From assembly GCF_023555375.1 (NCBI RefSeq), contig NZ_JAJSEE010000006.1, forward strand, positions 62,001 to 126,000: a stretch of 64,000 nt of DNA. Reading direction: 5' to 3'. Made by a program: the position numbers and the translations under genes. The notes under the pieces were generated by a model. It was not told where the DNA came from. It was given only the letters and a program-made list of their open reading frames with translations, and ran no database searches. This stretch comes from Guyparkeria hydrothermalis (GTDB lineage: Bacteria; Pseudomonadota; Gammaproteobacteria; Halothiobacillales; Halothiobacillaceae). Below are positions 17,383-56,111 of this stretch, one piece after another; positions within the stretch are counted from its first letter, which is position 1, and each line of letters begins with the position of its first letter.

Positions 17383-17402
17383 TACTGTTCTTTTTTACAG
17401 TA
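17383..17402. promoter_or_regulatory. LexA (SOS) box between imuB and lexA
   Basis: TACTGTTCTTTTTTACAGTA fits CTGT-N8-ACAG exactly, and the flanking TA on both sides also matches the E. coli consensus. Its near edge is 20 nt upstream of the imuB ATG and 260 nt upstream of the lexA start. It should repress imuB directly. It could also autoregulate lexA-imuA if their promoter lies here; in that case the whole 237-bp palindrome at 17409-17645 becomes the lexA leader. Confidence 0.9.
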
Positions 17403-17408
17403 TACTTA

Positions 17409-17645
17409 AAGGAAACGCTGCACGAATCCGATATCGCTCTGCGCGTCTTGAGTCGGGCAGGTGCAAGGCGCTCGTCCGCCGCGGAAGGGTGATTCCCTTT
17501 CCAAGGACGAAACCGGATCGGCAGGACGCCGATCCGGCCGGCGTGAGCCGGCCCGAAGGGCGAGGTCCAAGGACGGACCTCGCGACGCAGCAGATGCCCG
17601 ACTCAAGGCGCGCAGAGCGATATCGGATTCGTGCAGCGTTTCCTT
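17409..17645 (+). repeat. Palindromic structured repeat, copy A (lexA leader)
   Basis: Two 51-bp arms (17409-17459 and 17595-17645) are inverted repeats with a single G-T mismatch at 17446. Between them lie further hairpins: 17473-17509 (CGTCC/GGACG enclosing GGAAGGGTGATTCCCTTTCC), 17513-17537 (a perfect 10-bp stem with a 5-nt loop), 17536-17553 (GGCCGGC-GTGA-GCCGGCC, with a GNRA tetraloop) and 17561-17582 (CGAGGTCC/GGACCTCG with a 6-nt loop). The direct repeat TACTT flanks it at 17403-17407 and 17645-17649. It shares arms and left module with the other three copies and lacks their right module. It ends 16 nt before the lexA start. Confidence 0.92.
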
Positions 17646-20041: not shown

Positions 20042-20307
20042 GGAAGGTCTGCACGAATCCGATACCACTCTGCGCACCTTGAGCCGGGCAGATGCAAGGC
20101 GCTCGTCCGCCGTGGAAGGGTGATTCCCTTTCCAAGGACGACAACGCAGCAGATGCCCGGCTCAAGGCGCGCCCGGCGGGGATTGGCGAGTCGCCCGTGC
20201 TCGGCGTTGCGATGCCTTGACGTGGCCACCGGCACGCCCGCGACATCGCGCCTTGATCACGAACGACTCGCCAAGCCAGAGTGGCATCGGATTCGTGCAG
20301 ACCTTCC
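20042..20307 (+). repeat. Palindromic structured repeat, copy B (3' of the HDOD gene)
   Basis: The terminal arms GGAAGGTCTGCACGAATCCG and its complement at 20288-20307 extend to about 30 bp with one mismatch. Inside are a left module (20077-20090 pairing with 20154-20167, enclosing GGAAGGGTGATTCCCTTTCC) and a right module (TTGGCGAGTCG at 20183-20193 pairing with 20264-20274). The extra three-hairpin insert of copies A and D is absent. The element starts directly at the HDOD stop codon (20308) and ends about 40 nt before its terminator. Orientation is given by the left module coming first on the plus strand, as in all four copies. Confidence 0.9.
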
Positions 20308-21117
20308 TTAGCCACCCAGGGCGCGAATCGCCTCGTCGAGCTCGTCGTCGATCATGCTCGACTCGAGATCCACCCCGAGCTTTTCCGCGGCCATGATCGG
20401 GCGATCGTCCGGCGTGCGGCTGATACCTCGCGCCTGGGCAATCGCGCAGATCACCACGTCACTGTAGTTGGGATCGCCGTCATGCTGGTAGCCGAGATCG
20501 CCACAGTGCTCGATCACCTCGGCGAACATGTCGGGGAAGTCCCAGGCCTTGACGATATTACCGCCCAGGCGCGATTGCAGGCTTTCGACCAGCTCGTTGA
20601 GCACCGCCGGCGCGTCCTGCAGCTTGGGGATGTCCTCGGCGACCACGATTACCGGGATGCCGCCCACGCTGTGCAGCAGACCCGCGAGCAGGGCCTGGTC
20701 GGGATCGAGCTTGGTGTGCCGGCGGGCGATGTGGTTCGCCAATGCCGCCACCTGGGTGGAAAACGCCCAGTGGTCGCGCATGATGCGCTTGATGGTGGGC
20801 GTGTCGGCATGGAACAGCTGCTTGGCCGACAGCGAGACGATCAGCTGGCTGACCGTTCGCATCCCCAACCGCGAGACGATCTGGTTGAGGTTGTCGATGT
20901 GCTGAGCGCCGCGATACAGCGGGCTGTTCGCTACCTGGATCAGGCGGGCGGCGATCGCCGGATCCTGCGAGATCACCTCGACCAGATCGCTCGCCGAGCT
21001 GTTGGGGTCATCGATGATCCGCCGGGCGCGCATCGCTACATCGGGCAGCACGGGCAAGGAGATGCCCTTGTCGCGGATCTTGTTGATGATCGCCTGTTCA
21101 AGTGCCGGATTGGCCAC
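20308..21117 (-). CDS. HDOD-domain protein (putative signalling regulator)
   Basis: The protein of 269 residues is almost entirely one HDOD domain, a helical relative of HD phosphohydrolases that lacks full metal ligands. Visible landmarks are LPVLPDVAMRARRIIDDPN, ISQDPAIAARLIQVANSPLY, IVSRLGMRTVSQLIVSLS and LLAGLLHSVGGIPVIVVAED. Such proteins usually act in signalling and have no proven catalytic activity. I choose the GTG at 21117 because AGGGAG sits 8 nt before it; an upstream GTG at 21147 gives 10 more residues without a good site. The stop codon is immediately followed by repeat copy B. Its target process is unknown. Confidence 0.88.
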   Translation of the reverse strand: MANPALEQAIINKIRDKGISLPVLPDVAMRARRIIDDPNSSASDLVEVISQDPAIAARLIQVANSPLYRGAQHIDNLNQIVSRLGMRTVSQLIVSLSAKQLFHADTPTIKRIMRDHWAFSTQVAALANHIARRHTKLDPDQALLAGLLHSVGGIPVIVVAEDIPKLQDAPAVLNELVESLQSRLGGNIVKAWDFPDMFAEVIEHCGDLGYQHDGDPNYSDVVICAIAQARGISRTPDDRPIMAAEKLGVDLESSMIDDELDEAIRALGG

Positions 21118-31891: not shown

Positions 31892-32160
31892 GGGAAGGTC
31901 TGCATGAATGGCATACCGCTCTGCACGCCTTGAGTCGGGCAGATGCAAGGCGCTCGTCCGCCGCGGAAGGGTGATTCCCGCATCCAAGGACGACAACGCA
32001 GCAGATATCCGGCGCAAGGTGCCCCCAGCGGGGCTTGGCGAGTCGCCCGTGCTCCGCGTTGCGCTGTCTTGACGTGGCCACCGGCACGCCGGTGACACCG
32101 CGCCTGGATCACGAACGACTCGCCAAGCCAGAGTGGTATGACATTCGTGCAGACCTTCCC
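31892..32160 (+). repeat. Palindromic structured repeat, copy C (between initiator tRNA genes)
   Basis: The terminal arms GGGAAGGTCTGCATGAATG and their complement (ATTCGTGCAGACCTTCCC) are paired with a few mismatches. The right module stem CTTGGCGAGTCG (32034-32045) pairs perfectly with 32116-32127. The left module is the short form without the three-hairpin insert, like copy B. The direct repeat CTTG flanks it (31889-31892 and 32160-32163). Its right end touches the -35 box of the second tRNA gene. A one-base length difference from copies A and B inside the left module shifts every reading frame, which argues against coding. Confidence 0.9.
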
Positions 32161-55760: not shown

Positions 55761-56111
55761 GGGAAACTCTGCACGATTCGATGACGTCTCTGCGGGACCT
55801 CCAAGGGTCCAGATGCAAGGCGCAGTCCGCCGTGAAGGGCCGTCGCCCTTTACAAGGGCTGGACCGGATCGGCTCGACGCCGATCCGGCCGGCGCGAGCC
55901 GGCCCGAAGGGCGGGGTTCACGGACGAACCCCGCGACGCCGCAGATGGGCCCTTGGAGGCCCGCCCGGACGGGGCTCGCGGGTTTGCCCGCACTCGTCGT
56001 TGCCGTCCCTCGACGGGCCCGAGTGATCGCCCTGGGCCCGCCTTCGGACCGGCGCCTTGATTGCGGGCAAACCCGCGAGCCAGAGATGCCATCGCATCAT
56101 GCAGAGTTTCC
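55761..56111 (+). repeat. Palindromic structured repeat, copy D (rdgC-purB), longest form
   Basis: This 351-bp copy has every module. The arms GGGAAACTCTGCACGATTCG and the opposite ATGCAGAGTTTCC are inverted repeats with some mismatches. The left module carries a CCTCCAAGGGTCCA stem. The A-type insert follows: a 10-bp stem identical in sequence to that of copy A with a different loop, GGCCGGC-GCGA-GCCGGCC with a GNRA loop, and CGGGGTTC/GAACCCCG. The right-module stem (55974-55992 with 56062-56080) is a perfect 19 bp, unlike the 11-12 bp stem of copies B and C. CTAG flanks it at 55757-55760 and 56112-56115. Confidence 0.92.

Follow-up and report, generated by a model that had tools for sequence, protein, structure and literature searches.

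Bacterial MITEs fold when they are transcribed, and their structures are usually seen as a by-product of the inverted ends. As described in the available parts of the reports on Correia/NEMIS, ERIC, RUP and CIR, these elements are small and intergenic, with inverted-repeat ends, target duplications and stable folded transcripts. CIR has two arms (PMC2229807, available passages), as does the element described here. Among insertion sequences, IS5 inserts at the target motif YTAR (PMC10359306, available passages), and the end sequence of E. coli IS5A is GGAAGGT. A second group of comparable systems consists of the CsrA/RsmE binding hairpins of RsmX/Y/Z, CsrB/C and the flaA leader. According to the passages available, CANGGANG is an Rsm-binding motif (PMC6849547) and forms a high-affinity site when located in an apical hexaloop (PMC4894983).

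In this study, we analysed a repeated element in the window, which is the whole stretch of 64,000 nucleotides taken from a contig of Guyparkeria hydrothermalis. The element itself is a MITE of a known kind. It differs from Correia/NEMIS, ERIC, RUP and CIR, as far as these are described in the passages available, by its IS5-like ends, 4-bp YWWR duplications, two homologous inverted arms and an optional module in which the loops are kept and the stems replaced. This module is the unusual part: its architecture and loops outlast the letters of its stems, and it can sit in either arm. We consider it probable that the locus is a mobile MITE-like element with a structured RNA module, possibly with a candidate CsrA/RsmA site.

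The element is a repeat of 237-350 bp with the ends GGAAGGT or GGAAACT. On the plus strand of the window, we identified copies A (17409-17645), B (20042-20310), C (31893-32159, between two tRNA genes) and D (55762-56111, between rdgC-like and purB genes). Copies were designated as T1 (B-like), T2 (D-like with the module) or T3 (D-like without the module); B and C are T1 copies without the module, and D is a T2 copy. Full-length copies (45 T1, 19 T2 and 50 T3, out of 160 unique elements) were aligned and folded, and each type folded into a long terminal helix (P1) that bears the arms P2 and P4. The module, where present, was inserted in the 3' strand of P2. Copies of the three types were found in 10 of the 11 genomes of the genus, and the only genome without copies (G003) is 64% complete. 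P2 was then compared with the reverse complement of P4. T1 P2 against T3 P4 beat 500 of 500 shuffles and T3 against T3 beat 499 of 500, while the T1 arms compared with each other were not significant (78 of 500 shuffles as high). The element thus probably consists of two related arms in inverted orientation.

Copy A, of 237 bp, begins with a B-type left half, followed by the module; its right end repeats its left end as the reverse complement. Its terminal inverted repeats form the left (17409-17440) and right (17614-17645) strands of P1, and arm P2 (17441-17613) carries the module in its 3' strand. The right arm is a near-perfect complement of the left arm, and P4 is missing exactly at the three-way junction. 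Copy C and its orthologue in another genome of the genus (L303 in G001) lie between the same two tandem tRNA genes with the same flanks, and only the G001 copy has the module; copy A resembles this G001 form minus arm P4, cut at the three-way junction. In copy D, a 48-nt imperfect inverted repeat at 55973-56081 corresponds to arm P4. Palindromes of about 57-200 bp in four genomes (L294-L302) consist of the family ends and little more, as a deletion series toward a bare end helix, and one of these loci (L300) is a near-full-length single copy.

The terminal inverted repeats of a MITE are present, and we investigated whether the element had moved. An identical 4-bp duplication was found directly outside GGAA...TTCC in 23 of 75 copies as compared with 5.2 with reshuffled flanks, the 75 being the copies whose ends passed the end motif, so that the rows were chosen by end motifs. 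Most duplications had the form YWWR (CTAG, CTTG, CAAG and similar). Element A was absent from the lexA locus in all 9 of the other genomes having this locus, which gives an empty site. Element B had no counterpart at the exact place in the other genomes examined, and in one of them (G010) this gap contains a different copy. The 142 elements were grouped into 136 separate insertion-site clusters, almost all of them lineage-specific. The GGAAGGT ends and the YTAR-type target agree with the IS5 subgroup, in which the agreement covers seven end bases and GGAAACT ends are equally common in our family. Based on the target duplications, the empty sites and the IS5-type ends and targets, we call the element an IS5-like, non-autonomous MITE. 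It differs from IS5 in that there is no internal transposase, the ends diverge after base 7 and no matching transposase occurs in the genus.

An autonomous partner with the family ends was not found in the genus genomes. DDE_Tnp_1 (PF01609) was present in one of the 11 genomes, and this gene was rejected because it belongs to an IS4-like element with unrelated ends. The exact end pattern also gave no partner among 369 genomes of the class. It matched in 8 of them and, outside the genus, marked elements in one genome alone (G172, 21 matches). The matches in G196 were sited among ordinary genes, those in G176 and G238 showed no similarity to the element types, and all of these were rejected. In 83 viral stretches, no paired family ends enclosed a transposase, and the sole candidate (L417) was rejected as it carries a virion-like ORF. 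The transposase partner may have been lost, or it may come from another Pfam family. No match was found in the plasmid collection for elements A, B and D or in the phage collection for A and D, and no family reached the gathering cut-off in an Rfam scan of the window and region. No account of the element was found in papers on Guyparkeria, where the available passages of the pangenome paper contain no mention of transposons or MITEs, and a literature search pairing CsrA with miniature inverted-repeat matched only the Rfam 12 update, in its available part.

The original prediction described two hairpins shared by copies A and D, and both were read exactly. The first has the stem GGCCGGC/GCCGGCC in both copies, with the loop GTGA in A (17536-17553) and GCGA in D (55887-55904). 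The second is GCGAGGTCC-AAGGAC-GGACCTCGC in A (17560-17583) and GCGGGGTTC-ACGGAC-GAACCCCGC in D (55911-55934), and the A-T to G-C and C-G to T-A swaps between A and D are each compensated on the opposite side. We found that these regions (17536-17583 and 55887-55934) belong to a 71-nt module of three hairpins, of which they form the second and third (hairpins 2 and 3); in A, the module is located at 17513-17583 on the plus strand. Hairpin 1, which had been missed, lies upstream at 17515-17535 in A, with the loop AGGAC (CAGGACG), and at 55866-55886 in D, with the loop CTCGACG and without GGA. The module is an optional insert common to A and D. A model of sequence and structure (R1), built on 20 module copies, scored 110 bits for copy A and 109 bits for copy D, and everything else in the 64-kb window scored at most 16.2 bits. 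The loop of hairpin 3, passed over earlier, turned out to be the best-conserved loop of the module.

Covariation in a larger alignment had been proposed as a check on structural selection. We aligned the 20 full-length module copies out of 32 matches; the other 12 were partial, rearranged or chance matches in genes, and one weak further match (L292) was omitted. The covariation score was 0.120 compared with 0.075 in shuffled alignments (0 of 500 as high), and slid structures scored far lower than the true structure. Standard pairs made up 94.5% of pair cells as compared with 92.2% in shuffles, and 17 cells had double-sided changes as compared with 5.6 (0 of 500 as high for both). Five pairs had a double change, with 2.6 expected from shuffles (18 of 500 as high). 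The number of further pair types did not exceed that in shuffles (9 compared with 10.6). Since the 20 copies are related by descent, they argue only moderately for structural selection when taken alone.

The stronger evidence comes from G172, a genome of another family in the same class, which was identified by means of the end pattern. The T3-like elements in this genome share 82% identity with the Guyparkeria-type ones, and one kind carries an 85-90 nt insert. This insert lies in arm P4 and on the element's other strand. R1 recognized this insert with 34.6 bits (E 5e-10 for 801 bases, filters off) and a cut-off copy with 26.8 bits (E 2.6e-6 for 22 kb). A sequence-only model (R2) scored 4.6 bits on the insert with filters off and had no match at E up to 1 in the 22 kb; these E-values are rough, coming from short calibrations, and the effective sequence numbers of the two models differ. 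When the two G172 rows were added to the 20 copies in a 22-row MAFFT alignment, 12 of 24 pairs had changed on both sides (4.2 in shuffles), with 36 double-changed cells (7.1 in shuffles; 0 of 500 as high for both). The majority letter was found at 13 of 34 stem positions of G172 hairpins 1 and 3, indicating that about half of the stem letters had been replaced, whereas the loops and the CCGMAG linker kept it at 13 of 17 (Fisher p 0.017). Hairpin 2 was the least kept in G172, and several of its pairs were lost. Judged from these alignments, the retention of loops while stems were replaced indicates that the module has been maintained in the form of a folded single strand. Because it occurred between genera, a sense strand is implied as well. 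The persistence of loops and architecture between families, despite the replacement of roughly half of the stem letters, suggests that the folded strand has a function.

The type of nucleic acid and the strand were then considered. GNRA loops had been taken as a sign of RNA, but they are not invariant and were found in 16 of the 20 Guyparkeria-type copies; the remaining four had ACAA, ACGA, ATAA and ATTC in hairpin 2, and both G172 rows had CUUU. On these loop counts, GNRA was rejected as the key feature. The claim that such loops are irrelevant to DNA was also too strong, given that some GNA and GNNA loops are stable in DNA hairpins. The argument from the plus strand was not supported either, since the two strands of copy A fold about equally (-187 and -180 kcal/mol) and no skew between G.U and A.C was found over the element. 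In the host genome (2.43 Mb, 9 contigs), 62 exact 16-base family ends and no reversed pattern were found. In G172, the module is carried on the other strand of the element. This placement indicates that the useful strand is a property of the module, rather than of the element's plus strand overall. Of the proposed selection on an RNA structure, the folded structure with kept loops and replaced stems was retained, while the arguments from GNRA and from the plus strand of the element were not.

Strand selection was examined by counting one-sided changes to G.U or to A.C, with the structure chosen without G.U pairs. Over the whole element the ratio of G.U to A.C was 217:200 (p 0.43), with no plus-strand skew. 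It was 45:43 in helix P1, 112:77 in arm P2 (p 0.013, leaning to the plus strand) and 54:72 in arm P4 (p 0.13, leaning to the minus strand); in the module, 6:8 is too small a count to tell. As a control, RNase P from related genomes gave 25:11 (p 0.029) with 21 of 24 sequences, 3 near contig ends being dropped. P4 being related to P2 in inverted orientation, both arms lean toward their respective sense strands. Pooled by sense strand, the arms gave 184:131 (p 0.003) and their internal branches 28:6 (p 0.0002), the pooling being post hoc. The opposite leanings of P2 and P4 were seen in all types, as if each arm were selected on its own sense strand.

The strongest alternative is that the family is a decaying MITE family shaped at the DNA level only, in which compensatory changes say nothing about RNA and arise from palindrome correction (template switching or conversion) or from transposition via a folded DNA strand. 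Helix P1 fits this account. It contained 106 double changes, 51 of them of the transversion kind and often clustered, with a G.U to A.C ratio near unity. End variants matched within a copy in 59 of 75 cases as compared with 15.9 in shuffles, with many different variants. The near-perfect complementarity of the two arms of copy A and the lack of a strand skew over the whole element agree with it. Covariation in P1 was thus rejected as proof of RNA for want of strand skew, and P1 is better explained by palindrome correction or folded-strand transposition than by RNA selection. However, this account does not fit the kept loops and replaced stems of the module, and it leaves unexplained the arm-specific skew, whose combined p is post hoc, and the sense-strand orientation bias. 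As an explanation of the whole element, we regard it as possible but on balance unlikely.

We next examined the hairpin-3 loop of the structured module. It has the form ANGGAN and is closed by C-G. Both G residues were invariant, and all four bases occurred at N alone (A 3, C 11, T 3, G 5). This loop contained CANGGANG in 17 of the 22 rows and ANGGA in 18, so that GGA lies in the apical loop within the motif of CsrA/RsmE sites in those 17 module rows. The hexaloop is AAGGAC in A, where CAAGGACG matches CANGGANG, and ACGGAC in D (TCACGGACGA). In G172, the loop was CACGGATG on an otherwise different stem; as the 20 copies share descent, the independent loop evidence rests on G172. In 154 elements, C-G-closed ANGGAN hexaloops with a stem of at least 4 pairs numbered 16 on the plus strands and none on the minus strands, compared with 0.8 in shuffles. 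With a stem of at least 6, they occurred in the 64-kb window in copies A and D only. For hairpin 1, a loop with GGA was present in only 9 of the 22 rows. From its letters, hairpin 3 is possibly a CsrA/RsmA site. It shares CANGGANG in a C-G-closed apical hexaloop with the RsmX/Y/Z, CsrB/C and flaA leader hairpins, as these are described in the passages available, and differs from them in having one or two putative sites per copy, not many, and in riding on a transposable element. No csrA gene was matched by text pattern in the fetched loci.

The module could instead be a target of RNase III or other processing, or a mere roadblock, as in Correia and ERIC, with its loop letters being incidental. 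Co-transcribed MITEs can be cleaved by RNase III or affect transcript stability (PMC10969869 and PMC2229807, available passages), and these precedents favor such a role, as does the very stable fold of copy A (z about -20 compared with shuffles). However, RNase III needs neither the conservation of the loop nor the exact position of the variable N, and we consider this explanation unlikely, though not negligible. That the element belongs to REP-like hairpins moved by a Y1 (RAYT) transposase is very improbable. It resembles them as a repeated intergenic palindrome of constant strand sense, and Y1_Tnp genes (L229-L237) occur in 6 of the 11 genus genomes, 3 of them in the host genome. Unlike REP/RAYT sequences, it is 237-350 bp long, has 4-bp target duplications at its ends and adjoins no Y1 gene in the 10 loci examined of 17 Y1 matches; copies were also present in genomes without a Y1 match (G004, G005, G006 and G008). 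A domesticated family of structured noncoding RNA, repeated by coincidence, would account for the elaborate, conserved fold, but it is barely credible in view of the lineage-specific sites, empty sites, target duplications and lack of an Rfam family at the gathering score.

Returning to the MITE with a structured module, the proposed mechanism is as follows. The element is a non-autonomous MITE-like repeat with IS5-like ends, in which hairpin P1 carries arms P2 and P4 and P2 can contain the 71-nt module. In copies situated within the leader of a transcript, such as A upstream of lexA, the module would fold as RNA and could be bound by a protein that reads its loops. The likeliest binder would be a CsrA/RsmA-type protein at the CANGGANG hexaloop of hairpin 3, with hairpin 1 sometimes acting as a second site. 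Copies would then either equip the gene downstream with a site for post-transcriptional control or titrate the protein. The CsrA/RsmA reading is our best guess at a function. The full proposal, that the element spreads candidate CsrA/RsmA-binding hairpins and thereby rewires or titrates a global regulator in Guyparkeria and an unrelated family, with the lexA leader as a recent target, is offered as a speculation that we think rather doubtful. Should the loop of hairpin 3 prove to be a CsrA/RsmA site, mobile DNA would provide a global regulator with new sites, and this can be tested directly on the lexA leader of the host genome.

Copy A begins three bases past a -10-like TATACT, which follows a LexA-box-like palindrome; this stretch (17383-17406, plus strand) lies directly upstream of the element and is kept in relatives lacking it. 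The downstream gene is lexA (NCBIfam). Because this conserved promoter-like site of lexA ends at 17406, the plus strand of copy A is probably transcribed, and the whole plus strand of A would be the lexA leader if the site is used. Element A may have replaced the lexA leader. Among ten genomes, an element between the LexA-box-like promoter and lexA (17383-17645) was seen in the host genome only.

Genes were predicted by a simple codon-usage caller, and 141 of 142 elements were intergenic. At sites with co-directional neighbours (72 of 136 sites), the sense strand was the plus strand in 49 cases and the minus strand in 23 (p 0.003). T1 contributed most of this excess (26:9, p 0.006); T2 and T3 together gave 23:14 (p 0.19), and module-carrying T2 copies had no clear bias (9 sense, 5 antisense). 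In the window, copies C (plus-strand tRNA genes) and D (rdgC-like and purB genes, both plus) were in the sense orientation and copy B was antisense. Apart from the module, two G172 loci (L335 and L341) carried a different hairpin-rich insert at the tip of a small hairpin in arm P2, which indicates that several hairpin tips of the element accept inserts.
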